Below, piece after piece: positions 5,400-19,074 of a stretch of DNA of 39,164 nucleotides. The stretch comes from a virus. The translations under genes were made by a program, and so were the position numbers. The stretch spans positions 1 to 39,164 of the IMG/VR virus record IMGVR_UViG_3300032560_000052; one strand, given 5' to 3'. The notes under the pieces are model-generated. The model searched no databases, was not told the DNA's origin, and was given only the letters and a program-made list of their open reading frames with translations. Within the stretch, counting starts at the first letter, position 1. Each line of letters starts with the position of its first letter.

Positions 5400-6017
5400 A
5401 TGAATCTCGCCATTTTTTACGACACAGAAACGACAGGATTGCCCCTGTTCAATGAGCCCAGCGAACACCCGGCCCAGCCGCACATCGTGCAGATCGCGGC
5501 CTGCCTGGCGGACATGGACACCCGCAACACCATCGCCAGCATGGACGTGATCGTGCAGCCCGACGGCTGGACCATCCCTGACGAGGTGGCCGCGATCCAC
5601 GGAATCACCACCGAGCATGCTCTGGCTGTCGGCGTGCCCGCCAAGCTGGCGATGCAGATGTTCCTGGAGTTGGCCATGGGCCGCACTCGCATCGGCCACA
5701 ACGAGCAGTTCGACGCCCGCATGGTGCGCATTGCGCTTCTGCGCCATTTCAATGTAGAGATGGCCGACGAATGGAAGGCCGGAGATTCCGAGTGCACTCA
5801 GCGCCTGGCGACACCCGTCCTGAAACTGCCTCCCACCGCAAAGATGCGTGCCGCAGGCCGCAACCACTTTAAGAGCGCCAACCTGCGCGAGGCATACCAG
5901 CACTTCACCGGTAAGCCGCTGGAGAACGCCCACAGCGCAATGGCTGACGTGCAGGGTTGCATGGCGGTCTATTTCGCCATGCAAGACCTCCTGCAGCCGC
6001 AGATGCAGGCTGCCTGA
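5400..6017 (+). CDS. DnaQ-like DEDDh 3'-5' exonuclease
   Basis: A 205-residue exonuclease with all DEDDh motifs: Exo I FYDTETTGLP (Asp8, Glu10), Exo II GHNEQFDARM, and Exo III AHSAMADVQG with the histidine and aspartate in place. The length fits a stand-alone proofreading-type or recombination exonuclease. It lies 27 bases after the YqaJ gene and belongs to the same operon, so a role in DNA recombination or repair during early infection is likely. No polymerase gene is present in the genome. Confidence 0.88.
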   Translation: MNLAIFYDTETTGLPLFNEPSEHPAQPHIVQIAACLADMDTRNTIASMDVIVQPDGWTIPDEVAAIHGITTEHALAVGVPAKLAMQMFLELAMGRTRIGHNEQFDARMVRIALLRHFNVEMADEWKAGDSECTQRLATPVLKLPPTAKMRAAGRNHFKSANLREAYQHFTGKPLENAHSAMADVQGCMAVYFAMQDLLQPQMQAA

Positions 6018-6047
6018 CCCATCCCCCAACCCTGAAAGAAAACTGAA

Positions 6048-6551
6048 ATGAAACGCTATATCGGAACCAAGATCATCACCGCAGCGCCCATGAACCGCGC
6101 GGATTACAACACCTATCGCGGCTGGGAATTGCCGGCCAACGAGAACGGCGCAGACGAGGGCTACCTGGTCGAATACACCGATGGCGGCAAGGCCAATGAC
6201 TCGCGCCATGCAGGCTACATCAGCTGGTCGCCAAAAGAGCAGTTCGAGGGCGCCTACCGCGAAACTGCCGGCCTGTCGTTCGGACTGGCTATTGAAGCGC
6301 TCAAGCTGGGTCAGAAGGTGGCTCGCGCTGGCTGGAACGGCAAGGGCATGTGGCTGGTCCTGGTGCCCGGTAGCCCGAACGTGACAACAACTGCCGGAAG
6401 CCCGTACCACAACGCTGGAGTGCTGACGACTGAAATCCTGCCGCACATAGATATGTGGACCACAAACGCGCACGGACGCCGAGCCATGCTGCCGGGCTGG
6501 CTCGCATCCCAGACCGACATGCTGGCCGAGGACTGGTCCATCGTCGATTGA
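6048..6551 (+). CDS. Two-domain protein with C-terminal DUF2829 (Tad2, anti-Thoeris)
   Basis: Residues about 76-167 form a complete DUF2829 domain: FGLAIEALKLGQKVARAGWN, GKGMWLVLVPG, a central PHIDMW, and the ending PGWLASQTDMLAEDWSIVD. DUF2829 is the fold of Tad2, a phage protein that sequesters the cyclic nucleotide signal of the Thoeris defence; other members bind CBASS signals. Residues 1-72 are a separate small domain (KRYIGTKIITAAPMNRADYN, GYLVEYTDGG, GYISWSPKEQFE) that I know from many phages without a function. Tad2 proteins are often single-domain, so the joined layout is notable. ATG 6048 lies just after a GAAAGAAAA stretch. Confidence 0.85.
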   Translation: MKRYIGTKIITAAPMNRADYNTYRGWELPANENGADEGYLVEYTDGGKANDSRHAGYISWSPKEQFEGAYRETAGLSFGLAIEALKLGQKVARAGWNGKGMWLVLVPGSPNVTTTAGSPYHNAGVLTTEILPHIDMWTTNAHGRRAMLPGWLASQTDMLAEDWSIVD

Positions 6552-6649
6552 TTTTCGGGGTGAATGCGCCAGCCCTTGCGCCATGAATGCCGGAGATAAG
6601 TAGGGCACCGGCCACCCCACCACCAACATTCAAACCCAAATAAATCAAC

Positions 6650-7186
6650 ATGTTCGAACTCGAAAATTTTACAAAAGCCAAGCTGACCGAGGTCGCCGTA
6701 CTTTCCCAGAAGAACCGTGAGCCGGACGCAAACCCCGGCTGCGCACTGTCATTCAGCATGGAGCTGAGCAACCACTTCCTTGCGCACTTTGACGGCTCGC
6801 TCAAGCACTTCCTGTATGCGAAATCCGCAGCCACCACCACACCGAAGCAAAAGGGCCTGGAGGGAGTCGATGAAATCTCCGATACGCCCAACCTCACCGT
6901 TGCCGGGTCGCGCATCGGAAAGTTCCATTGGGACCATGACCTGATGGGCTACGAACTTGCCATCGATCACGGGCTTGGCGGCGCGTCCAACTTGACTATC
7001 GGTGACGTGCAGTTGTCGTCGTTTCGTATCGACCCCAAGGAGGGTGGAACGATTGTCCTGACGTTCTTGGCGGAAAGCAACGATGTTCCCGAAGGCGTTT
7101 TCGGGAAGCTGGCCACGCTCAAGAACCGCGAAGTATCGATCCAGTTGGCACCGGCTGAAGCTGCGCAGAGCGACTTGGACAAATAA
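6650..7186 (+). CDS. Conserved phage protein of unknown function
   Basis: A 178-residue soluble protein starting MFELENFTKAKLTEVAV. It looks like a beta-rich domain with GYELAIDHGLGGASNL and IDPKEGGTIVLTF segments and a short acidic tail. I recall similar proteins in phages of proteobacteria, always near recombination or early genes and always without a function. No catalytic motif or membrane segment is visible. A 98-base spacer precedes it; the ribosome site is weak. Its position beside the Tad2-like gene makes another anti-defence function possible, but nothing in the sequence shows that. Confidence 0.75.
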   Translation: MFELENFTKAKLTEVAVLSQKNREPDANPGCALSFSMELSNHFLAHFDGSLKHFLYAKSAATTTPKQKGLEGVDEISDTPNLTVAGSRIGKFHWDHDLMGYELAIDHGLGGASNLTIGDVQLSSFRIDPKEGGTIVLTFLAESNDVPEGVFGKLATLKNREVSIQLAPAEAAQSDLDK

Positions 7187-7319
7187 CTATTTCGGGGGGA
7201 AAGCGGATGCTGTGCAGCACTACCCAGCGGGAAACTGCGGATGGACGCTAACAAGTCTGGATGCGCCGCTCAGACGCAGCGAGTACCCCACCAATTCACC
7301 CACCACCACTGAAAACATC

Positions 7320-7715
7320 ATGAACGCAAAAACCATCATCGCAAGCATTTCCCTCGCCGCCCTGCCCGCTGTCGGCACTGACCTGGAGGGCGGCACCTTC
7401 GCCGGCGTGACCACGCGCCCGGACGGCACGCACTGCGCCGTTGTCCTGCTGCCTGGAACTGCTGAAGACCTGACCTGGGAGGCTGCCAAGGCCTGGGCAC
7501 TGGAGCAAGGCGGAGAGCTGCCGACACGCCCCGTTGCTGCCATTCTGTTCGCCAACGTCAAGCCCGCGCTGTCGCCCGAATGGCACTGGACCGCCGATGA
7601 ATACAGCGCTTCTATTGCCTGGGGTTGCGACTTCTACTACGGCTGCCAGGACTTCATCAACAAGGACGACGAGTTGTCTGCCGTTGCTGTCCGCATGATT
7701 CCCCTCACCGCTTAA
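7320..7715 (+). CDS. DUF1566-like protein, copy 1, with a variable C-terminal segment
   Basis: A 131-residue protein of the DUF1566/C-type-lectin-like kind: GGTFAGVTTRPDG, LLPGTAEDLTWEAAKAWALE, GGELPTRPVAAILFANV, WHWTADE, and the ending SIAW...DELSAVAVRM. It is paralogous to the next gene. The segment at residues 102-117, between SIAW and DELSAVAVR, differs from its partner only at codon positions 1 and 2 (see the repeat entries). DUF1566 and related lectin-like folds are known targets of diversity-generating retroelements. ATG 7320 lacks a strong ribosome site; the first 18 residues are hydrophobic and could be a signal peptide or the first strand. The place in an early operon is odd for a receptor-binding protein. 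Confidence 0.8.
   Translation: MNAKTIIASISLAALPAVGTDLEGGTFAGVTTRPDGTHCAVVLLPGTAEDLTWEAAKAWALEQGGELPTRPVAAILFANVKPALSPEWHWTADEYSASIAWGCDFYYGCQDFINKDDELSAVAVRMIPLTA
7607..7690 (+). repeat. Variable-region-like segment 1 (VR1)
   Basis: This segment aligns without gaps to 8107-8190 (offset exactly 500). The outer blocks are identical: 16 bp at the 5' side (ending in the TGG codon at 7620-7622) and 22 bp at the 3' side (from ACGAGTTGTC). Between them 15 of 46 positions differ, nine at codon position 1, six at position 2 and none at position 3. In 11 of the 15 one copy has A. Similarity drops sharply outside. Confidence 0.85.
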
Positions 7716-7747
7716 TCCTTCAATCCTTTTTTTCTGGAGCACCAGCA

Positions 7748-8203
7748 ATGTCCGTAACCATTGAAGCCATCCGGGCGCGCCAAACTGAACTGGCGGCCAT
7801 GATTCAAGCCTTCGCAGAACAGGCGACAGCCGTCACCCACATCGAAATCGAAGGAACCACCATCGAGCTGCAGCCGGGCGAACACTACGCCGGGGCTGTG
7901 CTGGATCAAGACGGCGACCATCTGCATCACCTTGTGCTGATGGCCGAGCGCCCCACCGACACCCTGAATTGGCAGGCCGCCATGGATTGGGCGCAGCGCA
8001 TTGGCGGATCGATTCCGAGCCGTCAGGAACAAGCCCTGCTTTTCGCCAATTGCAATCCGCATCTGGAAGATGGATACCACTGGTCCAGCGAAACGCACGC
8101 GAATAACGCTTCTATTGCCTGGATTTGCAGCTTCGACTTCGGCGGCCAGGGCAGCGGCGACGAGGACAACGAGTTGTCTGCCGTTGCTGTGCGTCGCGTG
8201 TAA
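7748..8203 (+). CDS. DUF1566-like protein, copy 2, with a variable C-terminal segment
   Basis: A 151-residue paralogue of the preceding gene. It has an extra N-terminal helix (about residues 1-30, RARQTELAAMIQAFAEQ) that may oligomerise, then the same fold: LQPGEHYAGAVLDQDG, LNWQAAMDWAQRIGGSIPSR, QALLFANCN, YHWSSETHA, and SIAW...NELSAVAVRRV. The variable block is residues 126-141. ATG 7748 follows TCTGGAG. It lies 32 bases after copy 1 and 18 bases before an HNH endonuclease gene. Function is unknown; it may display variable residues on a lectin-like surface. Confidence 0.82.
   Translation: MSVTIEAIRARQTELAAMIQAFAEQATAVTHIEIEGTTIELQPGEHYAGAVLDQDGDHLHHLVLMAERPTDTLNWQAAMDWAQRIGGSIPSRQEQALLFANCNPHLEDGYHWSSETHANNASIAWICSFDFGGQGSGDEDNELSAVAVRRV
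8107..8190 (+). repeat. Variable-region-like segment 2 (VR2)
   Basis: Partner of 7607-7690. Its variable block contains no third-position change relative to VR1 across 16 codons, while the shared flanks are exact. A template repeat with A at each variable position would explain both copies. I did not see a third copy when reading the window. Confidence 0.85.
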
Positions 8204-8221
8204 ATGGCTTCGGAGTAAATC

Positions 8222-8713
8222 ATGATCGAATGGCGTGATGTGGTTGGATTTCCAGGTTACAAGGTGAGTAACGCTGGCGACGTAAAAGGCCCGCTGAAGG
8301 TGCTGAATCAGCGCGCAGACCGCAAGGGCTATTTGTCGGTGAGCATGCGCCGCGATGGGGTGCTGCACAAGCGCACAGTCGCCCGCCTGGTCGCTGAAGC
8401 ATTCCTGGGTCCACGCCCGGATGGTCAGCAGGTGCGCCACAAAAGCGGCATCAAGACGGATAACCGCTTTTCCAATCTGGAATACGGAACCCAGGCGGAC
8501 AACGAGCATGACAAGCGACGTCACGGCACTGCACCAATTGGTGAAAACCACCCAGCAGCCAAGCTGACGGGGCAGCAGGTAATTGACATTCGCGCGCGTT
8601 GCATCCGATATGACCGCACGCATGGTGAGTCAGCCATTGCGCGCGAATATGGACTATCCCAATACACCATCGGGAAGATCGTGAGCCGCCAGCTCTGGAG
8701 TCACATCGCATGA
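8222..8713 (+). CDS. HNH homing-type endonuclease (NUMOD4 plus HNH)
   Basis: A 163-residue free-standing homing-type endonuclease. The N-terminal EWRDVVGFPGYKVSNAGDVK is a NUMOD4 DNA-binding motif. The HNH core follows: HKRTVARLVAEAFLG, VRHKSGIKTDNRFSNLEYGT with the N-x-x-x-N-L-E pattern. A C-terminal helix-turn-helix-like part (GENHPAAKLTGQQVIDIRAR, AREYGLSQYTIGKI) resembles NUMOD/IENR1 DNA-reading repeats. No intron is evident around it. It sits directly after the second DUF1566 gene. Confidence 0.88.
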   Translation: MIEWRDVVGFPGYKVSNAGDVKGPLKVLNQRADRKGYLSVSMRRDGVLHKRTVARLVAEAFLGPRPDGQQVRHKSGIKTDNRFSNLEYGTQADNEHDKRRHGTAPIGENHPAAKLTGQQVIDIRARCIRYDRTHGESAIAREYGLSQYTIGKIVSRQLWSHIA

Positions 8714-8895
8714 TCCACCTCACATTCGCCCAATACGAAGCCCTCAAGATCAAGGCGGGTCAGCGCTACGACTTATTGAAAGCCCTTTCCCGCATTGCAA
8801 CTGACCCAAAAAAGCCGGGCGATCTGCGCGGGGCTCCAGCCATGCGCCAGTACGCCAGGGATGTTGTCGAACTTGCTAAGTCGGAGGTAGCTTGA
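8710..8895 (+). CDS. Small protein of unknown function
   Basis: A 61-residue, helix-rich, mildly basic protein (MIHLTFAQYEALKIKAGQRY and on). ATG 8710 overlaps the stop of the HNH gene by four bases, and its own stop overlaps the next start. Coupled translation is the main support. No family recognised. Confidence 0.6.
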   Translation: MIHLTFAQYEALKIKAGQRYDLLKALSRIATDPKKPGDLRGAPAMRQYARDVVELAKSEVA

Positions 8896-9053
8896 AAGCC
8901 GCAGACCTTCACCAGTCTGGAAATTCGTACTTTGGCCTGCTGCGCCAGGCCAGCCACAGCCATGCCGATCGCGCCCTGGTGGCGAACCTGCTGCGCAAGC
9001 GCGGGCACGTCATCAGTGGCGACTTAACAAAAACATTCAGGAAGACCAAATGA
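8892..9053 (+). CDS. 53-residue basic protein with TTG start
   Basis: TTG 8892 overlaps the previous stop (TTGA) and follows a near-perfect ribosome site, GGAGGT at 8883-8888. The product begins MKAADLHQSGNSYFGLLRQA and is rich in His, Arg and Lys, ending TKTFRKTK. The stop overlaps the methyltransferase start (ATGA). The strong ribosome site and double overlap argue for a real gene. Function unknown. Confidence 0.6.
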   Translation: MKAADLHQSGNSYFGLLRQASHSHADRALVANLLRKRGHVISGDLTKTFRKTK

Positions 9054-9958
9054 AAGCAATCGACCTATTCTCAGGCGCTGGCGGCTTCAGTACCGGAGCC
9101 ACCATGGCCGGCGTGCAAGTCGTCTGGGCTGCAAACCACTGGCCGGCCGCAGTCCAGGTGCATGCCAATAACCATCCCGCCACCCAGCATGTGTGTCAAG
9201 ACCTGCAGCAGGCCGACTGGACGCAAGTCCCGGCTCACGGCCTGCTGCTGGCTTCACCAGCATGCCAAGGCCACAGCCGTGCACGCGGCAAGGAACGCGC
9301 GCACCACGATACCCAGCGCGCCACGGCGTGGGCAGTTGTAAGTGCAGCAGAGTGCCACCGGCCCGACGCCGTGCTGGTCGAGAATGTTCCGGAGTTTGCC
9401 CGCTGGACGCTGTACCCTGCATGGTGCACGGCAATGCACGCCCTGGGTTACGCGCTGGCGCCAATGATTCTGGACGCAGCAGACCATGGCGTGCCGCAGC
9501 ACCGCAGACGGCTGTTCATCGTCGGCACACGCAGCAAGCACCCGGTCCAGCTGGATCTGCCGCGCCGCCAGCACGTCGGATCGGTGTCGTTCGTGGACTT
9601 CAATGCCGGACGGTGGTCTGCAGTGGACAAGCCGGGCCGCAGCCGGGCCACTGCCGGGCGTGTTGCAGCAGGACGCAAGGCGCACGGCGACCGCTTCCTG
9701 ACTGCGTATTACGGCAGCGAAACGGGAGGCCGCAGTCTGGACCGGCCAGTGGGCACGATCACGACGCGCGACCGCTGGGCTGTCATTGACGGCGACCGCA
9801 TGCGCATGCTGTCCGTGGATGAGTGCCGCAAGGCCATGGGCTTCCCGGACAGCTACCAGCTCCCGAGGCGCGCCAAGGACGCCATGCACATGCTAGGTAA
9901 TGCCGTGGTGCCCATGGTGGCCTGCGACGTTATCAACGCACTGAGGGCTGCGGCATGA
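9050..9958 (+). CDS. DNA cytosine-5 methyltransferase
   Basis: A 302-residue C5-cytosine methyltransferase. Motif I is DLFSGAGGFSTG (residues 5-16), motif IV SPACQGHS with catalytic Cys72, motif VI VENV, motif VIII QHRRRLFIVG and motif X near the end LGNAVVPMVA. Motif IV reads PACQ rather than the commoner PPCQ. The target-recognition part (about 180-245) is short. No restriction partner is present, so the likely role is to protect phage DNA from host restriction. It overlaps both neighbours by four bases and forms a pair with the adenine/cytosine-N4 enzyme that follows. Confidence 0.92.
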   Translation: MKAIDLFSGAGGFSTGATMAGVQVVWAANHWPAAVQVHANNHPATQHVCQDLQQADWTQVPAHGLLLASPACQGHSRARGKERAHHDTQRATAWAVVSAAECHRPDAVLVENVPEFARWTLYPAWCTAMHALGYALAPMILDAADHGVPQHRRRLFIVGTRSKHPVQLDLPRRQHVGSVSFVDFNAGRWSAVDKPGRSRATAGRVAAGRKAHGDRFLTAYYGSETGGRSLDRPVGTITTRDRWAVIDGDRMRMLSVDECRKAMGFPDSYQLPRRAKDAMHMLGNAVVPMVACDVINALRAAA

Positions 9959-10668
9959 AGGCTCACGCCATCGGCACCGTGACCATGTTTGAAGGCGACT
10001 GTATGGATTTCATGCGCGACCTTCCAGACGATAGTTACGAATTGGCCATCGTAGACCCGCCCTATTTCGTCGGGCCGAACAAGTCCGGCTATTACGGCAA
10101 GGGCTTCAGCAGCCTTGGCGTCCAGCGCGCAAAACATTACGATACCCTGCCAGTCTGGGAAGTCCCCGGTACCGAGTACTTTTCGGAGCTTCGGCGCGTC
10201 TCCAAAAACCAGATCATTTGGGGCGCCAATCACTTCGCCAATCGATACGATTTCAGCGGCCCGGGCTGGATTGTTTGGGACAAGCTGAACGGCAAAAGCA
10301 GCTTTGCGGATGCCGAGCTCGCGTGGTCCTCCTTCGACAAAGCCTGCCGGGTATTCCGGTACGTCTGGAATGGCATGCACCAGGGCCAGCATGGCGGCAA
10401 CAAAGCATTAAACGAGGTGCGAATCCACCCGACCCAGAAGCCGGTGGCGCTCTACGAATGGCTGCTGGCCAAGTACGCAAAGCCAGGCGACTGCATCCTG
10501 GATACCCACTTGGGCAGCGCAAGCAGCGCCGTGGCGGCCTTGAATATGGGTTTCGCCCTGGATGGCATGGAGCTGGACCCCGGCATGTACGCCGCAGCCT
10601 TAGAGCGCGTGGAAGCACACCACCAAGCTATGCGAGCAAACCCAAGCTTGCTGGGGGATGCAGCATGA
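9955..10668 (+). CDS. DNA N6-adenine or N4-cytosine methyltransferase
   Basis: A 237-residue amino-methyltransferase. The catalytic motif DPPY is at residues 34-37 and the SAM-binding part lies at the C-terminus (PGDCILDTHLGSASSAVAA then ALDGMELDP), preceded by HPTQKPVALYEWLL. DPPY first and the SAM motif last is the beta-class order, most often N6-adenine. Its start overlaps the stop of the cytosine methyltransferase. Orphan methyltransferases like this usually serve anti-restriction. The target base cannot be told from the sequence alone. Confidence 0.9.
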   Translation: MKAHAIGTVTMFEGDCMDFMRDLPDDSYELAIVDPPYFVGPNKSGYYGKGFSSLGVQRAKHYDTLPVWEVPGTEYFSELRRVSKNQIIWGANHFANRYDFSGPGWIVWDKLNGKSSFADAELAWSSFDKACRVFRYVWNGMHQGQHGGNKALNEVRIHPTQKPVALYEWLLAKYAKPGDCILDTHLGSASSAVAALNMGFALDGMELDPGMYAAALERVEAHHQAMRANPSLLGDAA

Positions 10669-11123
10669 ACACCACCCACCGCACAGCATCCCGCGCCAAG
10701 CGCCACGACTTGCCAAAATTCTGGCTGCCAAAGATCGACGCAGCGCAGCAGCTCGATTGCAAGCTGACGCACTGGAACCTGTTCGACCTGATACGCACAG
10801 GATCGGCTGATTCCGACACCCTTTGGGACTGGATCGAGACCGGCTTCACCTACAGCCAAATGATTCGATTGTTTGCTGAAGACGGGACTGATTTCACCGA
10901 CGAAGCAGTGAGTGCTCTTGCCGAGCAGATTGCGAGTTACCCGGACGTGATTGCCCGGTACCGGAACACTGGCCGCGTCGGATTCAATGGACAGCAGCTC
11001 AACATCGCCCGCGCCGCTGCGCACGTGATGGATGGCCTGATCGAAATGGACCGGCATGGCATAGCGGTCAAGGCTGCGCAATGGAGCGTCGATCAGATGG
11101 CTCGGATTCGGAGGTCGATGTGA
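10665..11123 (+). CDS. Protein of unknown function between methyltransferase and integrase genes
   Basis: A 152-residue, mostly helical protein (MNTTHRTASRAKRHDLPKFW; later DTLWDWIETGFTYSQMIRLF and NIARAAAHVMDGLIEMDRHG). ATG 10665 overlaps the previous stop and follows GGGGGAT. The composition, with a His/Arg-rich start and several amphipathic helices, fits a small DNA- or protein-binding factor, but I do not recognise a family. Confidence 0.7.
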   Translation: MNTTHRTASRAKRHDLPKFWLPKIDAAQQLDCKLTHWNLFDLIRTGSADSDTLWDWIETGFTYSQMIRLFAEDGTDFTDEAVSALAEQIASYPDVIARYRNTGRVGFNGQQLNIARAAAHVMDGLIEMDRHGIAVKAAQWSVDQMARIRRSM

Positions 11124-11383
11124 CCCCCTGGTACTCGGACGCAGAGATTGACGACCTTTGCGAAGGCCTGCAGAACAATGCGGCCAAGGTTCGCCACCTG
11201 CGCAGCCTGGGCCTGACCGTTACCCAGAAGCCCAACGGGAAACCCATCGTCATGCGCGAGCATGCCACGGCGGTGCTTGCCGGGCTAAAGGAGGTCCTGT
11301 CGGTGGACACCCATGTGCCGGCAGCCGTCACCAATCGCGCAGCGCTGATCGCTGCTTTTGGGCGCCCAAGAGCGGCGGCGTAA
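11120..11383 (+). CDS. DUF4224-like protein next to the integrase
   Basis: An 87-residue protein resembling DUF4224: WYSDAEIDDLCEGLQNNAAK, VRHLRSLGLTVTQKPNGKP, IVMREHATAVL. Such small proteins often sit just upstream of phage integrases and may act as excisionase-like or regulatory DNA-binding factors; that role is not proven. GTG 11120 is chosen because it overlaps the previous stop (GTGA) and GGAGGT lies 5 bases upstream. Confidence 0.7.
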   Translation: MTPWYSDAEIDDLCEGLQNNAAKVRHLRSLGLTVTQKPNGKPIVMREHATAVLAGLKEVLSVDTHVPAAVTNRAALIAAFGRPRAAA

Positions 11384-11393
11384 TATGGAAACC

Positions 11394-12506
11394 ATGGGAC
11401 GCAAACGGAAAAATGCAGAATTGGACCTCCAGCCTCGGGTGTATGCCAAGCATGGAGCGTTCTACTACGTGCACCGCACTGGCAAATGGGAACGACTCGG
11501 TACCGACAAGGCCGAGGCGAACCAGCGCGCCCGCCTGTTCAATGATCCGGATGGCCAGTTTGGAACCCTGGTCTATTGGCTGGACATGTTCCTGGCGCAT
11601 TGCAAGACCCGCGTGGATTCCGGCACGCTGGCCCAGCGCACCTATGACGACTATGAGGTGGCCATCACTGGCACCAAGGGCAAGAATCCCAGACCCGGGG
11701 CGCTGCGCCTATTCTTCGCGCCGCCCATGACTCCCACCCAGCTGACGCCCGATTCTGTCAACGATTTCCTGGTGACCAATGCCGAGCTTGGCCGCCCAGT
11801 CCCCGCGAACAGGGAAAAGGCAGCGCTGAGCAGCTGCATCAGCTGGCTGATCCGCACCGGCAAGGTGCCTGGCCTGAAGGTGAACCCCTGCCTGCGCGCC
11901 AGCGGCATCAAGCGCAACACCGAGACACGCCGGGACCGGTATGTCACCCACGACGAATACAGCGATGTCTGGGCCTTAGCGCACAATTCTGTTCGCCTGA
12001 TGATGGAGCTCACCTACCGCACCCTGCAGCGCCCGGAGAGCGACATCATCAACTGGACGACCGAGGTCCTGCTGACGGAAGAAAATCAGCGCAAGCTGCA
12101 CTTCCAACAGGGAAAAACCAAACGCTGGATGAAAATCGCTATTGCGCCCGAGCTGGATAGCCTGGTGCGGGCCAGCCTTGGGGATGTGCCCAAGCTTCGC
12201 CAGCCCCTGATCCGCACCGGTGACGGCACGGTCTACACCTATGACGGCCTGAGTTCCATGCTCAAACGCACAATCACCAAGGCAAACAAGGCGCGTATTG
12301 AAAAGGGTGTGCTGCCCATGCCACCCTTCGGCTTTCGGGATCTCAAAGGCAAGGGGGCTACGGACATGTGGCGCTCAGGCGTGGCAATCGAATTGATTCA
12401 GCACTTGTGCGGCCATGCCGACAAGGCAACCACAGAGATTTACGTCAAACAGCGCTGGAGCGAGACCGCAATTGCGAACGCTGTGGTGCTGTCCAAAATA
12501 CAGTAG
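11394..12506 (+). CDS. int: Tyrosine-recombinase integrase
   Basis: A 370-residue integrase that would recombine attP with the host tRNA-Asn gene. The N-terminal arm-binding part starts MGRKRK, followed by the KHGAFYYVH strand region, a core-binding domain, and the catalytic domain from about residue 185. Catalytic residues: Arg213 (LQRPESD), Lys in GKTKRW, the FRDLKGKGAT box (residues 314-323), His341 (LCGHADKATT) and the nucleophile Tyr350 (EIYVK). The second box has Lys318 where many integrases have Arg. ATG 11394 fits the family start; ATG 11385 is possible. The last 19 bases of the gene are one copy of a direct repeat that flanks attP. Confidence 0.92.
   Translation: MGRKRKNAELDLQPRVYAKHGAFYYVHRTGKWERLGTDKAEANQRARLFNDPDGQFGTLVYWLDMFLAHCKTRVDSGTLAQRTYDDYEVAITGTKGKNPRPGALRLFFAPPMTPTQLTPDSVNDFLVTNAELGRPVPANREKAALSSCISWLIRTGKVPGLKVNPCLRASGIKRNTETRRDRYVTHDEYSDVWALAHNSVRLMMELTYRTLQRPESDIINWTTEVLLTEENQRKLHFQQGKTKRWMKIAIAPELDSLVRASLGDVPKLRQPLIRTGDGTVYTYDGLSSMLKRTITKANKARIEKGVLPMPPFGFRDLKGKGATDMWRSGVAIELIQHLCGHADKATTEIYVKQRWSETAIANAVVLSKIQ
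12488..12506. repeat. 19-bp attP-flanking direct repeat, left copy
   Basis: GCTGTCCAAAATACAGTAG, identical to 12753-12771 and in the same orientation. This copy includes the integrase stop codon. Exact repeats on both sides of the tRNA segment are expected of integrase arm-type sites; binding is inferred. Confidence 0.75.
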
Positions 12507-12628
12507 TCGCAGAGCTGCAGCCCACATGAATGCGTGGTCAGATTTTCATCCGTACGGGGAAAATATTAGACAGTCCGCATGCAGAAATTGAGGATTTACG
12601 CGGCGTTCCCAGTGGTTTTGGGTGCCGT

Positions 12629-12673
12629 CTGTTAATCCGTAGGTCCCTGGTTCGAGCCCAGGTCGAGGAGCCA
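12629..12673 (+). other. attP: attP core: 3' half of a tRNA-Asn gene
   Basis: The 45 bases run from the anticodon loop CTGTTAA (anticodon GTT at 12631-12633), through the T arm (CCTGG TTCGAGC CCAGG) and the acceptor strand TCGAGGAG, to CCA at 12671-12673. The 5' half is missing: the bases before 12629 cannot form the anticodon stem. A phage attP carries exactly this part so that integration restores the host tRNA gene. No complete tRNA gene is present in the window. Confidence 0.9.
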
Positions 12674-12698
12674 ATACAACCCGCAAGGGTGCTTGGAA

Positions 12699-12728
12699 GC
12701 CTGCTACTTAATCAGTAGCAGGCTTTTT
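12699..12728 (+). terminator. Rho-independent terminator after int/attP
   Basis: A perfect 10-bp stem (GCCTGCTACT at 12699-12708, AGTAGCAGGC at 12714-12723) with a 5-base loop and five T. It ends rightward transcription after the integrase gene and attP core. Confidence 0.93.
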
Positions 12729-12752
12729 CGTTTATTGGACGAATTGTTAGAC

Positions 12753-12771
12753 GCTGTCCAAAATACAGTAG
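12753..12771. repeat. 19-bp attP-flanking direct repeat, right copy
   Basis: Second copy of the repeat at 12488-12506, 265 bases away, beyond the terminator. A partial related element (TTAGACxGTCC) occurs near 12569-12578. Confidence 0.75.
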
Positions 12772-12782
12772 TTTCCCGATGT

Positions 12783-12814
12783 AAAAAAGCCCTCACTCCC
12801 GAAGGAATGAGGGC
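12783..12814 (-). terminator. Terminator of the late operon
   Basis: On the minus strand an 11-bp stem (12804-12814 with 12789-12799, one G-U pair), UUCG loop, then six U. It ends the leftward late transcript after Rz/Rz1. With 12699-12728 it separates the converging operons. Confidence 0.9.
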
Positions 12815-12856
12815 AAGGCCTGACCGTCGCTAAATCAGGCAGGAGACAACTGGAAT

Positions 12857-13366
12857 TCAGGGCGCCCGGTCCGCCAGGATCACTGCCTGGCAGGCTCCGA
12901 GCTGCTGGACGATGGCGTCTGCTCGGTCGGCTTCGCTGAGAAGAAATTCAGCAGCTGGTCCCGAAAGTCCGGGTTCTGCTGCACCATCACGTCCGCTGGC
13001 GCTGGCGGCATCTTGGCCGGCTGAACCTCCACAGGATTGCTGGGCGCTGGCACCTGGGTCGCGCAAGCGCAAAGCACCAGAGCGAGCAGCGGCAATATCC
13101 TTTTGACGTTGAGTTTGAGCATCTTGCAGTTTCCTTTCGTAGTCAGTTGAAATGTCGGATTGGGTCTGGGCGTGCGCCTGTTCGCTGGCGCGCGCATCGG
13201 TCTCCATCTGGAGAATCTTGGCGTTGGCAGCCGCAAGCTCGACGTTGTCCTTGGCCTGCCATGCCACTCGCTCTGCGGAGTGCCCGGCACCGTTCTGCCA
13301 GTAGCCGACGCCTGCCAGACTGGCGATCCAGATGACCAGGGCGACGATGATTGCGTAGGGGTTCAT
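12857..13366 (-). CDS. Rz: Rz-like inner-membrane spanin subunit
   Basis: A 169-residue i-spanin: an N-terminal membrane anchor (residues about 4-23, YAIIVALVIWIASLAGVGYW), then a long periplasmic helix rich in Ala, Gln and Glu (about 35-100) and a C-terminal region. Together with Rz1 it disrupts the outer membrane after endolysin action. ATG 13366 overlaps the preceding stop by four bases. The whole Rz1 gene lies inside it in another frame. It is the last gene of the late operon. Confidence 0.88.
   Translation of the reverse strand: MNPYAIIVALVIWIASLAGVGYWQNGAGHSAERVAWQAKDNVELAAANAKILQMETDARASEQAHAQTQSDISTDYERKLQDAQTQRQKDIAAARSGALRLRDPGASAQQSCGGSAGQDAASASGRDGAAEPGLSGPAAEFLLSEADRADAIVQQLGACQAVILADRAP
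12880..13122 (-). CDS. Rz1: Rz1-like outer-membrane lipoprotein spanin, nested in Rz
   Basis: An 80-residue lipoprotein fully embedded in Rz in another frame. The signal MLKLNVKRILPLLALVLCAC ends in a lipobox (LCAC, acylated Cys20, or LVLC with Cys18). The mature part is proline-rich (VPAPSNPVEVQPAKMPPAPA), as in other Rz1 proteins. ATG 13122 has its own ribosome site, AAAGGAAA, about 8 bases upstream. Confidence 0.85.
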   Translation of the reverse strand: MLKLNVKRILPLLALVLCACATQVPAPSNPVEVQPAKMPPAPADVMVQQNPDFRDQLLNFFSAKPTEQTPSSSSSEPARQ

Positions 13367-13620
13367 GGTGATGGTTCCTTTGGTGGTGGATTGCGGTTGT
13401 CAAAATAGAACTTGGTACACGCGGCTTGGAGCAAGCTGTAGGGCCCCGTTACCGCGGCGATCACCAGCCCCACATCGGACCCCGTTTTGTCCGGATGGGC
13501 TGCTGCGTATGCCATAGCCCATTCAGTGACGCGCACAGTCCCCCAGAAAACACCGATGCTGAGAAGGTGCTTGTCGATCTCGCGGGAGTCGATCCAGTCC
13601 CAGAATCGGGTAAATTTCAT
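13363..13620 (-). CDS. Small membrane protein of the lysis cassette, holin candidate
   Basis: An 85-residue protein with a charged N-terminus (KFTRFWDWIDSREIDKH) and two moderately hydrophobic segments at about residues 18-40 and 50-68, then a proline-rich hydrophilic tail. Size, topology and place between endolysin and Rz suggest a two-span holin or pinholin-like protein. The XhlA-like protein upstream is the other candidate. Both ends overlap neighbours by four bases. Confidence 0.6.
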   Translation of the reverse strand: MKFTRFWDWIDSREIDKHLLSIGVFWGTVRVTEWAMAYAAAHPDKTGSDVGLVIAAVTGPYSLLQAACTKFYFDNRNPPPKEPSP

Positions 13621-14144
13621 GCCAGCACTGCCTTGGCCTGCTCGTAGAGCGCCAGCCGGTCCGCCTCGCCATTCAATCCGCCATTGATGCGCCGGGTGAT
13701 GGTCTCAAACTCACGGGCATCGGCCAGTTCGTTGAGTCCGTGCGACTGCCAGAACCACATGGCGCTGCGTACCGCGTATTCCGGCTGGGCCAATTGATCA
13801 GGGTCTCCCACAAAGTCGGTGGCCAGCGCATCGCTAACCTTCTGGTAATTTGCCCGGCCGGTGATCTGTATCAGGCCCCGGCCTCGGTACCGGAATCCGT
13901 CACCTTCTTCGGTATTGCCAAGGTCGGCCCTCCCCTCGTAGCCATCCTGTGCGGCGTCCGGCCCCCACAGCTCGGTGAGCCAGTGCATGCCACCAGACTC
14001 ATGGCCGACTTGCGCCAGGAACGCGGCCAGTCGGTCCGGCGTGTTGATGTCAAAGTCGGCGGAAGCGCACTCAATGATTGGCAGGAATTCGGTCGCGCGC
14101 GCCACTGTGGCGCCGGTTGCTTGGGCTAGTTGTTCGGGCGTCAT
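13617..14144 (-). CDS. GH19-type endolysin (chitinase-like lysozyme)
   Basis: A 175-residue glycoside hydrolase of family 19, the type often used by phages of Gram-negative bacteria to cut peptidoglycan. The catalytic region is visible as FLAQVGHESGGMHWLTE (Glu49 and Glu58), followed by YRGRGLIQITGRANYQ and the end of the fold around RSAMWFWQSHGLNELAD. No signal peptide, so release needs a holin. ATG 14144 (not an upstream start) is chosen because it follows GGAGCACAAAA and overlaps the previous stop. Confidence 0.9.
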   Translation of the reverse strand: MTPEQLAQATGATVARATEFLPIIECASADFDINTPDRLAAFLAQVGHESGGMHWLTELWGPDAAQDGYEGRADLGNTEEGDGFRYRGRGLIQITGRANYQKVSDALATDFVGDPDQLAQPEYAVRSAMWFWQSHGLNELADAREFETITRRINGGLNGEADRLALYEQAKAVLA

Positions 14145-14461
14145 TTTTGTGCTCCATGAGTTATCAGGTACCAGATGCTGGCGATTGATGTGGTCACGCC
14201 AGCTAGCCACGCAATGCCCTTGCCAAGCCAGTTGGACACTTTGAAAAAATTCTTACCCATGCGGACGATTTCCAGCACTTCATTTGTTGCCCTGTTGTTG
14301 TTGTCCAGGTCTTTGCGCAGGCCGTTCATTTCGGTAGAGCCTTCGGACAGACGCTTTTCAATGAGCTGGAAGCGGCCAATGGCATGCGCTTCAAATGGCG
14401 TGTTGGCATCCGGCGGCGTGCGGCGCTCCTGGCCGGCATAGGCTGAACTTGTATCGGTCAT
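14141..14461 (-). CDS. XhlA-like protein with coiled coil and C-terminal membrane span
   Basis: A 106-residue protein: polar N-terminus, an amphipathic helix (RFQLIEKRLSEGSTEMNGLR and on to EVLEIV, about residues 30-66), then one C-terminal membrane span (about 78-100, GIAWLAGVTTSIASIWYLI). The layout resembles hemolysin XhlA-type proteins that work with holins. It overlaps the endolysin start by four bases. Likely part of the holin system; the exact role is open. Confidence 0.6.
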   Translation of the reverse strand: MTDTSSAYAGQERRTPPDANTPFEAHAIGRFQLIEKRLSEGSTEMNGLRKDLDNNNRATNEVLEIVRMGKNFFKVSNWLGKGIAWLAGVTTSIASIWYLITHGAQK

Positions 14462-14754
14462 GCTTTACCTGTAAGTAGTTGAATTGCTGCCTGCGCCCTG
14501 GCAATGTCATTGGCGATGGCATCCTCGCAATGGGTCGCGCTGCACATAACGAAGTTGACCACCTTGGCTGGCCAGGTGGTGCCGGAGCGCGCCGCCAATC
14601 CAGCACGGCTGGAGATCGTCACGCCTATGGTGTCCTGGTAGAAAATGTCCTGGCACATGGCGTCGAAGCCGATGGCCAGGCTGTACAGGATGCCGGTCTG
14701 GACGATTGCGCCCAGGACGATCAGGGCGAGGAAGATCAGGACAAAGAGCTTCAT
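14458..14754 (-). CDS. Exported or membrane-anchored lysis-region protein
   Basis: A 98-residue protein with a strong N-terminal hydrophobic helix (residues 2-28, KLFVLIFLALIVLGAIVQTG) and a periplasmic part with three cysteines (AMCQD, VMCSA, HCEDA). It may be a signal anchor. Function unknown; its place at the head of the lysis genes could mean an antiholin or lysis regulator, without direct evidence. Both ends overlap neighbours by four bases. Confidence 0.6.
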   Translation of the reverse strand: MKLFVLIFLALIVLGAIVQTGILYSLAIGFDAMCQDIFYQDTIGVTISSRAGLAARSGTTWPAKVVNFVMCSATHCEDAIANDIARAQAAIQLLTGKA

Positions 14755-15110
14755 GGTGCGAGGGTTCCTGCGAGTTGGAAAAGAGCGTGGACTTGATCTG
14801 TCGTTTGGCCCAGCGTGGTCGCCATGCTGACGATCAGCGGGTCAGTCTCGGTAAATATCAGCGCCTCGGACCAAGCCAACTGCGTCAGCAAGGGGCCAGC
14901 GTTCACGGCAGCGAGCGCCTGTGTGTATAGGTTTTGCTGCACCAGCGCGGCTTTGAACTGGTAGGGGGTGACGGACAGAGGTGCCGTTACCACTGCCGGA
15001 GCTTGCACCGCACAAGGCGTCATGGGCGCCGCCCATGCAGGCACAGAGCCATCAGGGGATTCGTACTGGTAATAGCCGCCGCCAGCGTCGGTGAATGCAA
15101 GTGTGGTCAT
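14751..15110 (-). CDS. Tail-fibre-assembly-like protein
   Basis: A 119-residue protein directly downstream of the fibre gene (ATGA overlap; ribosome site GAGGATCAG). It starts with a beta-like part (FTDAGGGYYQYESPDGSVPA) and ends in helices (VTPYQFKAALVQQNLYTQAL; PLIVSMATTLGQTTDQVHAL), the two-part look of small proteins that follow phage fibres and act as assembly factors or fibre caps. Assignment rests on position and pattern. Confidence 0.6.
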   Translation of the reverse strand: MTTLAFTDAGGGYYQYESPDGSVPAWAAPMTPCAVQAPAVVTAPLSVTPYQFKAALVQQNLYTQALAAVNAGPLLTQLAWSEALIFTETDPLIVSMATTLGQTTDQVHALFQLAGTLAP

Positions 15111-16861
15111 CTGATCCTCGTCATCTGGAATTGAACAAAGTTGTTTGTATTGAGCGCCTGCGCGTCCGTATGGACTCGGATAACGTCGCCGGCATTCAGC
15201 GGCATAACTTGTGATGCTGTAGCTTGGTAGTTCACCAATGGCACAGATGCTGTGGCAACGGCTTCCAATGCATTTGTCAGAGCAAAAATATCAACGGTTG
15301 GCTGCGTTGTGTTGCGCGAAATCCCCAAGTGCATGCCAGCGGGGCCGGATGCAAATAACGTCATCGAATAGATGCCTGGGTTATTCACCGTGAAAGAACC
15401 GCCAAGCGTTGCGCTATCGGCATAGGTAATGTCGGGGCCCTGCGCATTTGCAACACTTGAAAAACGCGCAATCTTGGTGTTTGTAGACCCGTATCCGTTG
15501 GGAAAATACACCCGCACAATCGATGCCGTTGGAATGGATTGTGCGGCGTTCCCGCCGATGCCTTGCACCTGCGTCGGTGCAGTCGCCCATATTCCGGCTG
15601 TTGCCTGAGTGGAATTGATCAGACCAACCACGCGATACGGCAAGCTCGTCCGTGCAGTGTTCGAATAGAAGACGTTGTTCGCAGTCGCGCTGGAACTGAT
15701 CGCCGTGGTGCTAATCAGGCCAGTTTCCGACAAATCATTGCCGCCAGCCAGATTCACCACGGCATATTCGATCGTGCCGCCATTGTTCATGGCAACGACA
15801 GCAATGCTCGATTGCTGCCCGCTCACTGATCCCAGCGTTGCGCCCGAAGGTATCGTCAGCGCAGCCGGAGCCCCGGTGATGGTGGTTGAGCCGCCAGCGC
15901 CCAGCGTGGCGCTGCGGAATGCAAGGTTGTATGTCGCGCTCGGAATCGTCAGCGCGTTGGACGCCAGTGTGGGCGTAGGCAGTGGTTGAATTTGAGCGCT
16001 GGAAACAAGGGCCCCTCCGCTCGCCAAGTCATAAGCCCTGCAAATCCAGTTCCCGCCGCCCAGCGATTCAAACTCCGCGCAGTCATTGGCCGCCGTGGTG
16101 ATGTTTGCGCTGCCCGGCAAAATCATCGACGTCGCGTTGTAGGTCAGCGTCAGCGCTCCTGCAAAGCGCACATGGCGCACGACGCCGGCAGCAACTGTGT
16201 CGAAAGCCGTGATTGCAGTCGTGCCGGTGATCAGGATGTTCGCTGATGCCGCGCCGCCGATTGCAGTGGTGGCGGCAGAGGCCACGCTGATTTCTGCTGT
16301 CTGATTCAGGTCGCCCAAGGCAACTCCATTGGCGCGCGTGTATGAGACGACATTCCATCCGCTAAGTGCTTGGTTGGGGTACGCAATGCAGGTGTCACCC
16401 ACCGCAGTCGTGATACTCGCGCCAGTTGGCAGATTAAGCGCAGCACTCTGCGTGAGAACCGTGATGCCGGTGAATCGCAGGAAACGCGGACCGTTGTAGT
16501 TGGTGCCAAAGGACGTGATTGCCGTGGTGCCGCTTATCTCCACCGCAACGCTTGTCTGACTGCCAATGTCTACCAGAGCGGCAGAGGCCATAGTAGTGGG
16601 CTCGCCTTGGCTGAAAAGTTGCAGAAAGGTAAGTGCGTCCCCTGCGGTGGCTGCATTCGCCATGCTCTGCATCTTCCAGCCGTTCATACTCAGATTTGCC
16701 AGTGGCTTGCCCTGACCGTCACGCGTCAGGCAGTTATTGAGCGCACTAGCAATGTCATTCGAATCGGTATCCATCCGAGATGGCGATATATCGAGGTTGT
16801 TTCCGGCGTCCGTCACCCAGCTGTATAGCCGACTAAAGACGCCACTTCCGTTCCATGGCAT
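15107..16861 (-). CDS. Tail fibre / receptor-binding protein
   Basis: A 584-residue fibre. The N-terminal 80 residues (MPWNGSGVFSRLYSWVTDAG; MDTDSNDIASALNNCL; LSMNGWKMQSMANA) are the virion-attachment domain found in many podovirus fibres. Two related beta modules follow, about residues 93-178 and 194-283, each with ITGTTAIT-type and FLRFTG/HVRFAG strands and an ITTA segment, evidence of internal duplication. The rest is Ser/Thr/Gly-rich beta sequence ending in a compact C-terminal domain (about 460-584). It is the only clear fibre, so it likely sets host range. A terminator hairpin lies directly upstream. Confidence 0.82.
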   Translation of the reverse strand: MPWNGSGVFSRLYSWVTDAGNNLDISPSRMDTDSNDIASALNNCLTRDGQGKPLANLSMNGWKMQSMANAATAGDALTFLQLFSQGEPTTMASAALVDIGSQTSVAVEISGTTAITSFGTNYNGPRFLRFTGITVLTQSAALNLPTGASITTAVGDTCIAYPNQALSGWNVVSYTRANGVALGDLNQTAEISVASAATTAIGGAASANILITGTTAITAFDTVAAGVVRHVRFAGALTLTYNATSMILPGSANITTAANDCAEFESLGGGNWICRAYDLASGGALVSSAQIQPLPTPTLASNALTIPSATYNLAFRSATLGAGGSTTITGAPAALTIPSGATLGSVSGQQSSIAVVAMNNGGTIEYAVVNLAGGNDLSETGLISTTAISSSATANNVFYSNTARTSLPYRVVGLINSTQATAGIWATAPTQVQGIGGNAAQSIPTASIVRVYFPNGYGSTNTKIARFSSVANAQGPDITYADSATLGGSFTVNNPGIYSMTLFASGPAGMHLGISRNTTQPTVDIFALTNALEAVATASVPLVNYQATASQVMPLNAGDVIRVHTDAQALNTNNFVQFQMTRIR

Positions 16862-16875
16862 TGACTTGCTCCTTA

Positions 16876-16900
16876 AATAAAAAAGCCACCCGAAGGTGGC
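16876..16900 (-). terminator. Intrinsic terminator directly upstream of the fibre gene
   Basis: On the minus strand GCCACC UUCG GGUGGC followed by six U and UAUUU (stem bases 16885-16890 and 16895-16900). It is inside the late operon, after the ejection protein gene and 15 bases before the fibre start. It should stop or reduce leftward transcription unless RNA polymerase is antiterminated. Confidence 0.85.
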
Positions 16901-16920
16901 AATGTGTGAGTTGGTGGAAA

Positions 16921-19074
16921 CTAAGGTTCGGCGCCAAAAACCGGCAGAGAGCGAAGGTAATTGGCGAGCGCGGAGGCGGGTGGATCGCTCAGCTTTGAGA
17001 GGTGGTCAGCGAGCGCGTCAGGATTTGTCAGCATGTCGATGTACCCCTGCTGCAGCCTGGCTCCCCCCAAATGTGATCCAGCAACGGTTGCACCGAGCAG
17101 CCCCCCTGCTCCTGCGGTTTCTGCACCCGGGAGGCCGGTAAGACTGCCTGCGACACCGCCCGCGCCAGTCAGTCCATACTTGACAAGCGGATTTTCAAAA
17201 AGACCGATGCGGCCGTTGATCGCATCTCCCACTTGGTTCGACAGATTTCCGTAATAGGCAGTCGGTGAGCCAGCGGACCCCATGCGCGAATTCGAAACGC
17301 TGACGTTTTGCAAGTCCTGATGCACATTGCCAAGCGCCTGGCGGAATTCCGGTGAAACCCCGTAATCCATTCCATCAATGGAGTTGATGGCTGATGTAAT
17401 TTTTGGCAGCGTTAATTGTGCGTCCCCGCCAACAGTGCCGGAACCCGCCACAAGTTTGCCAGTATCGCCAGAAAGCAAGCTGTTAGCAGCCTCTGCAGTA
17501 TTGATCGGTATGGAATTTTTGGCATATTGGGTAAGATAATCCCCATAGCCAGGATTCGAGGCTTCGATTGAACCAGTAATCGTATTCGCCAAAGGCGATA
17601 GACCCGCTGTCTGCTTGCTGCTGACGATTCCGCCGTTTGCATTTTGTCTAATGGTGCCGTTTAGATTCTGCCGAATTCCGTCCATTATGTCGGGATTCAC
17701 AAGCCCTGTATCTGGGTCTGCGGCCTGCAAAATGTGCGACTTAACGTCCGCCAGAGAACTCTTTATTACCTTATCCGTTCCAAATGATCCGTTTGACAGG
17801 TTGTCAATATGCGCCAGAACGAGCGAAGGGTCAACAGGATTTGAGAATTGGCCTGGTGTATAGCGGCCCAATTCGTCGGTGGTGCCCATTGCCTGCTGCG
17901 CTGCAGTCCGGCGCGCATCGATGAGTGCTTGCAATTCCTGCGGTGTTTTGGTGAAGTTCTGCAGGTAATCCAGCCGCGCTGCGTTGTTTGATGCATCCAG
18001 TTGAGAGAATGTATTTGCACCACCAGCAGAATTACGGAACGCCTGATTGAGTTGCACCATTGGCGCATTGGCGCCCTTCAGCACTGGAGCAAGCGCCTGA
18101 TCTGCCGTGTATTGAACCCCAGGAACCGGACTGGTTGCGCCGAGACGCAGCCCTGCTGCAAGCCTTTGCGGCCCGGACATATTTTTCAGCGCATCGGAGA
18201 CTGCTGATGAAATTGCATCCGGGTCAGCATTGACGAAGTTCTGCGATGGTTGCCCAGTGATCGTTGCCAGGTCTGCAGGCTTTGCCTCCAGCGCGGCAGC
18301 AAGCAAAGACGCATAGGAAGGTGTGGTAGTTGCTGCCAGTTTTCCAACCGCATCTCCCGCAGCACCTGTCGGGTTAATTAGCGCATTGGCATACCGGGCG
18401 GCATTCGCAGCGCCGCCCGCCAATCTGCTTACGACAGGAGGCAAAACAACAGACGCGGCAGCACCTATTCCGGCATCGCTAGCGTCACCGGCAGAATTTC
18501 CACCGCCAATAATTGCGCCCTCCGTGCCACGCTTGATAGCGGTATTGACGGCGCCTTGAAATGGCAAATACTTGGTCATCGGGGCAGCCAAATCCGCCAC
18601 CTTGCCGCCCAGGGCCGGTAGATTTGTTGGCAAAAGCCAAGGCACGATCTCACCGGCCACTGCACCAGCACCGGCAGAAACAGGACTATTTGCCACACGG
18701 GACTGGTAGTCCTTTTCGTTCTGAGTGAGCTGAGCCTGATCACTTGCCAGATCAGAATGGATTTTTTGATTTATTGGATTTTGCCGCTGTGGGTCAAAAT
18801 AATCCCCGACTGCACCCAACCCCCTCTGAACTGCCAGCGCGGAACCGTCGAAAAACTTCGTCGCATGGTGAGCCAGCGCATCAGTAAACGGTGATGCACG
18901 CGTCAGGTCGTCGGCACCTTGATACAGGCTTTGCAAGAAGCCGCCCCCAGGGTGTGGCGCGCTTTGAGTGGCGGTCGACGCCGCAGGCGCACCTCCGTCC
19001 CGTGCGATGAGCGCATCCAGTGCCGAACCGCCGCCCCCTAGGTCCTTTGCAATAAGCTGATCGAGCGCGCTCAT
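16921..19074 (-). CDS. Large virion protein, probable DNA-ejection protein
   Basis: A 717-residue Ala/Gly/Ser-rich protein starting MSALDQLIAKDLGGGGSALD. It has an imperfect N-terminal repeat (LDQLIAKD, LDALIARD), glycine-rich hydrophobic segments near 135-165 and 640-680 that could insert into membranes, and helical stretches between. This composition and the place downstream of the gp10-like gene fit the internal ejection proteins of P22-like phages. ATG 19074 overlaps the previous stop. Confidence 0.7.
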   Translation of the reverse strand: MSALDQLIAKDLGGGGSALDALIARDGGAPAASTATQSAPHPGGGFLQSLYQGADDLTRASPFTDALAHHATKFFDGSALAVQRGLGAVGDYFDPQRQNPINQKIHSDLASDQAQLTQNEKDYQSRVANSPVSAGAGAVAGEIVPWLLPTNLPALGGKVADLAAPMTKYLPFQGAVNTAIKRGTEGAIIGGGNSAGDASDAGIGAAASVVLPPVVSRLAGGAANAARYANALINPTGAAGDAVGKLAATTTPSYASLLAAALEAKPADLATITGQPSQNFVNADPDAISSAVSDALKNMSGPQRLAAGLRLGATSPVPGVQYTADQALAPVLKGANAPMVQLNQAFRNSAGGANTFSQLDASNNAARLDYLQNFTKTPQELQALIDARRTAAQQAMGTTDELGRYTPGQFSNPVDPSLVLAHIDNLSNGSFGTDKVIKSSLADVKSHILQAADPDTGLVNPDIMDGIRQNLNGTIRQNANGGIVSSKQTAGLSPLANTITGSIEASNPGYGDYLTQYAKNSIPINTAEAANSLLSGDTGKLVAGSGTVGGDAQLTLPKITSAINSIDGMDYGVSPEFRQALGNVHQDLQNVSVSNSRMGSAGSPTAYYGNLSNQVGDAINGRIGLFENPLVKYGLTGAGGVAGSLTGLPGAETAGAGGLLGATVAGSHLGGARLQQGYIDMLTNPDALADHLSKLSDPPASALANYLRSLPVFGAEP

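Follow-up and report, generated by a model that had tools for sequence, protein, structure and literature searches.

The phage genome analysed here very probably carries a recently decapitated diversity-generating retroelement (DGR), the relic of a cassette that its relatives still have. The window, by which we mean the whole stretch of 39,164 nucleotides of IMG/VR record IMGVR_UViG_3300032560_000052, contains two target genes with a DGR-type pattern in their variable regions (VRs), a remnant of a reverse transcriptase (RT) that follows them in the ancestral gene order, and none of the other core parts. Of the components of an intact DGR, the VR pattern and a lectin target are present, and the template repeat (TR), the RT as a whole and Avd are absent; the marks of a remnant, namely targets of DGR lineage, a partial core and relatives with the core at the same place, were all found. 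The window is an unusually clear case of a known kind, the DGR remnant, and not an intact DGR.

The first-pass annotation had regarded the genome as complete, and a 113-bp direct terminal repeat bears this out. As a RecT-like annealing protein, exonucleases, a portal, a terminase and an integrase are encoded, the phage is most likely a temperate tailed phage. No near-identical genome was found in the phage collection by megablast of window positions 6001-20000. An exact 20-bp direct repeat, GCTGTCCAAAATACAGTAGT, is located at 12488-12507 and 12753-12772, at the end of the integrase gene and just behind it, and is possibly linked to attachment or excision. The features of the region under study are the following, L049 being the closest relative:

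7320-7715, plus strand: target gene A (131 aa), an open reading frame paralogous to target gene B, with a C-terminal variable region; 82% identity to target A of L049
7607-7690, plus strand: VR1, with the variable core at 7623-7668 and an invariant 3' flank at 7669-7690, the position of an IMH-like element
7748-8203, plus strand: target gene B (151 aa), Lcl_C/DUF1566-like, with a predicted C-type-lectin fold (Pfam, AlphaFold, PDB fold matches)
8107-8190, plus strand: VR2, with the variable core at 8123-8168 and an invariant 3' flank at 8169-8190
8222-8713, plus strand: HNH endonuclease gene (NUMOD4 and HNH_3, Pfam), at the place of avd in the relatives
8710-8895, plus strand: small ORF (61 aa) overlapping the HNH stop codon, which would have come with or beside the HNH gene
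8898-9053, plus strand: DGR RT remnant, the last ~50 codons, open to a stop at the native end (L049 RT residues 299-350)
9050-9958, plus strand: C-5 cytosine DNA methylase, the gene next downstream of the RT in the ancestral order

VR1 and VR2, of 84 bp each, align without gaps; among the direct repeats of the window only the terminal one is stronger. The layout reported in the first-pass annotation was reproduced exactly, with identical flanks of 16 and 22 bp around 46 bp with 15 differences, and so was the distribution of these differences over the codons when read in the frames of genes 7320-7715 and 7748-8203, with nine at position 1, six at position 2 and none at position 3. One copy was said to have A at 11 of the 15 sites, which our recount corrects to 10. 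Divergence of the two paralogues at third positions outside the segment had also been noted and was confirmed, with 53 differences in 95 aligned codons outside the repeat against 0 in 28 inside it (Fisher p = 8e-9). The consensus TR of the relatives has A at 13 of the 15 variable sites, and the L049 TR has A at one of the remaining two.

When IMG/VR was scanned with the in-frame repeat core, leaving the variable codons free, 48 stretches were recovered. Many of them have three copies of the repeat with a spacing of about 500 and ~675 bp, two being VRs in tandem target genes and the third, rich in AAC, the TR. In L049, most of whose neighbouring proteins are 59-88% identical to those of the window, the gene order is target A, target B, avd, TR and RT, and the ancestral-type order seen in relatives is targetA-targetB-avd-TR-RT-methylase, with the methylase directly behind the RT in L036, L050 and L023. 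The Avd of L049 was recognised by Pfam (PF22296) and PHROGs (phrog_3206), and by NCBIfam below the cut-off, whereas its RT matched Pfam RVT_1 and phrog_1423 (E 6e-109) and has the motifs YVDD and IGNLSSQ. A DGR origin of the repeats, as first proposed, is therefore well founded, since in relatives these targets are accompanied by avd, a template and an RT. The early-operon position had been considered unusual, but it is where the cassette sits in the syntenic relatives of the clade. Hosts with the same cassette include the Burkholderiales Limnohabitans, Hydrogenophaga, Acidovorax, Curvibacter and Methylibium.

In the locus records with a template, to which a few phages contribute two loci each, the VRs depart from their own TR at 475 of the 1124 A sites and at 18 of the 2740 non-A sites. 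Judged from these alignments, such an adenine-restricted difference is the signature of a DGR. The tabulation of homologous segments by template base that the first-pass annotation had suggested thus gave changes almost only at template adenines; its other suggestion, a search for an RT with a nearby template, was successful in related phages and prophages, although none of the templates matched the flanks of the window. Some relatives showed further peculiarities. A second, distant RT-like ORF was detected at L163:8884-9621 (G004) and G009:21320-22090, with 35-47% identity to the DGR RT and open frames of 351-378 aa. The RT of L045 (G036:2634-3344) matches residues 1-238 only, though its frame is about as long as those of other relatives, and its C-terminal third may be recombinant.

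The lesion lies between target B and the methylase gene. Nucleotide homology of the window to L049 ends at the end of target B and restarts at about RT codon 299. L049 RT residues 299-350 match positions 8889-9044 with 87% identity (E 3.6e-26; 92% over 49 aa), the sole RT match in the window; the stop codon of the remnant is overlapped by the start codon of the methylase. A GGAGG at 8883-8887 followed by an in-frame TTG at 8892 is a possible start for the remnant; a peptide of ~53 aa could result, its translation coupled to the start of the methylase. In both the window and L004, the retained RT end contains what is probably the ribosome-binding site of the following gene; retention of the RT end to hold this site was considered and rejected, because only ~20 nt would be needed for that.

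At the place of avd, the HNH gene encodes a protein with scores above the Pfam gathering cut-offs for both HNH_3 (43 bits, cut-off 24.8) and NUMOD4 (24.3 bits, cut-off 23.4). No close homologue of this gene was present in 45 related phage records, where a distant one was found in G033 only, and a search of IMG/VR with back-translated patterns gave no relative; its best phage homologues, at ~42%, are in Pseudomonas phages Aurca01 and Medea1. The 61-aa ORF at 8710-8895 had no match in Pfam, NCBIfam, PHROGs, phage genomes or the related loci.

The rest of the core was sought in the window with negative results. The RVT_1 profile had no match, and no RT fragment was found beyond 8898-9053. There is no third copy of the repeat that could be a template, the next best match having 26 non-A mismatches in 58 positions. 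The L049 Avd gave no match by tblastn and the PF22296 profile was also negative, although this profile was silent in control genomes too, so the absence of avd rests mainly on the tblastn search. The earlier statement that the genome has neither RT nor template therefore holds for an intact RT and for the template, but it had overlooked the fragment at 8898-9053. Because this RT tail abuts the methylase as in the relatives, without avd, TR or other parts of the RT, the cassette was once present and its core has been replaced.

The timing of the loss can be approached from the VRs themselves. Both share the 3' flank GAGTTGTCTGCCGTTGCTGT, which differs from every known template, and since these shared bases are absent from the TRs of relatives we infer that both VRs were last copied from a template of the window's own lineage, after its split from L049. 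The 0 of 28 third positions places the pairwise divergence of the VRs since their last writing below about 0.10 (95% bound), and dS between the window and L049 in nearby coding sequence is 0.42-0.86. For the RT remnant, dN is 0.053 and dS 0.58 (dN/dS about 0.1), as if it were under constraint still or until lately. Given the lack of third-position drift between the VRs and a remnant that is still open, the loss of the core looks recent on the scale of the divergence from L049.

A near full-length RT was found in 28 of the 46 phage records searched; as some records without RT are short contigs, no loss rate is given. Several relatives have lost core parts in other ways. In L004 avd is kept and the pre-template leader is joined to RT residue ~312; L022 and L033 keep RT residues 1-107, followed by a methylase; L057 and L058 keep residues 1-77, L058 stopping at the contig end; in L008 and L051 avd is cut after about 45 residues and the RT is absent; in the Burkholderiales genome G048 avd is kept and followed by a ParB-like gene, the RT being absent; and G017, G026, G027 and G028 have a single target and no avd or RT within the contig examined. 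From these arrangements, core loss is a recurrent event in the clade, with at least five breakpoints besides that of the window, and in the cases read the targets are kept as open reading frames. The second VR of the RT-less L008 (10918-10996) has gained one in-frame codon, unexpected from DGR writing and perhaps a sign of decay after core loss.

The first-pass annotation had left it between a relic and a system working in trans, in which a co-resident prophage or the host would supply RT and template for the continued diversification of the VRs. Within the clade such cross-service is conceivable, and may occur between its phages, since templates of other phages fit all non-adenine positions in the RT-less L029, L019 and L047 and in VR1 of L008. 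When 25 distinct templates were compared with the VRs of the window, however, none could have written them, with at least 10 non-A mismatches in each case compared to 0-2 in nearly all pairs of a VR with its own TR, and until recently an RT was encoded in cis in the window itself. An exact search of IMG/VR for the 20-nt 3' flank of its VRs was negative, as was a search allowing up to one mismatch in 401 genomes from a single host family, which may not be that of the true host, and a scan with the upstream flank for a trans template gave nothing either. Trans action is very unlikely, as none of the searches, whether of the window, of IMG/VR or of the 401 genomes, yielded a matching template. 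Of the two options the relic is thus strongly favoured, because the RT C-terminus is still in place beside the targets and no template able to write the VRs was found.

A metagenomic mis-assembly, in which a segment with the HNH gene was joined into a phage with an intact DGR, would agree with the lack of a close homologue of this gene in related phages, and repeats of the VR/TR type can break assemblies. We regard it as highly improbable, as the junctions are at the stop codon of target B and within the RT, outside the VR/TR repeat, the genome is closed by its terminal repeat, and comparable core losses occur at the same locus in other relatives. Finally, recent gene conversion between ordinary paralogues followed by positive selection on the lectin loop, without any retroelement, has a negligible probability despite being raised at first: nonsynonymous changes can be overrepresented in surface loops under diversifying selection, but conversion would have wiped out the differences at adenine sites too and so is no alternative, the differences fall on template-adenine positions with no third-position change in genes that elsewhere differ at over half of these, and a complete DGR at the same locus in relatives and an RT fragment in the window are left unexplained.

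Regarding the targets, the match of target B to Pfam Lcl_C (E 1.6e-4) is under the gathering threshold, and its AlphaFold model (pLDDT 84) is closest among PDB folds to the C-terminal domain of Bd2740 (Z 12.0) and the C-domain of Legionella Lcl (Z 10.6), followed by many C-type lectins. Its variable residues (about 126-141) are in a lower-confidence segment near the C-terminus of the model. Target B is, as modelled, a C-type-lectin fold with a variable C-terminus, as found in DGR targets. By likeness to other DGR targets, the lectins of the window would bind something outside the phage, with binding of variable ligands. A third target gene with the same variable repeat was detected 2-6 kb from the other two in some relatives (L049:3963-4337, L016:3338-3763 and L076:3727-4113).

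The recently decapitated DGR that we propose would have arisen as follows. An ancestral phage would have carried targetA-targetB-avd-TR-RT-methylase, and error-prone reverse transcription of its AAC-rich TR, with random bases at template adenines, followed by retrohoming into the 3' ends of both lectin targets, would have produced VR1 and VR2. One or more recombination events would then have removed the stretch from the stop of target B to about RT codon 298, that is avd, the TR and about 85% of the RT, leaving a free-standing HNH gene and the small ORF in place of the core; the HNH gene probably arrived in the same event as the deletion. Both targets remain as intact ORFs that carry the variants written last; these are presumably frozen, so that the VRs would no longer change. 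A broader reading, in which core loss by replacement is a regular and possibly adaptive fixing of a useful lectin variant, aided by mobile endonucleases homing into the avd-RT region, and in which RT-less phages are occasionally rewritten in trans by co-resident prophages with templates sharing conserved flanks, is speculative and seems to us unlikely.

DUF1566/lectin targets and DGRs with multiple targets are well known (PMC6642488). Compared to phage DGR cassettes with two or more DUF1566/C-type-lectin targets (BPP-1-like organisation, here the L049 Burkholderiales clade), the window is alike in its targets, gene order, length and spacing of the repeats, adenine-specific variation, lectin fold and RT C-terminus, but is devoid of Avd, template and 85% of the RT, with the HNH gene and the small ORF instead. 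Target genes without RT and TR have been described in Treponema denticola isolates (PMC4891356). Cyanobacteria are known to have degraded cassettes, such as all3226 of a model species and, in Anabaena sp. 90, a remnant that consists of the RT only (PMC7517822). In these remnants too the targets or the RT outlast the rest of the cassette, whereas in the window the lesion is readable in a phage, with a positional RT fragment and a named replacement gene, and close relatives display the prior state and several parallel losses. The HNH gene shares its domains, size and insertion between early genes with the free-standing phage NUMOD4/HNH homing endonucleases (phrog_59, phrog_959), but it is tied to the loss of a retroelement core, and homing is only putative here. 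Replacement of a phage DGR by an HNH endonuclease did not come up in our searches of the open-access literature.

The lesion that produced a DGR remnant can seldom still be read, and here a single clade offers intact cassettes together with at least six different core losses at one locus. Searches for DGRs that are centred on the RT miss orphan target genes, which are not rare in this clade. The clade lets one ask whether the finding of a good variant is followed by loss of the hypermutation system, how fast VRs decay after the loss, and whether orphan repeats are served in trans.
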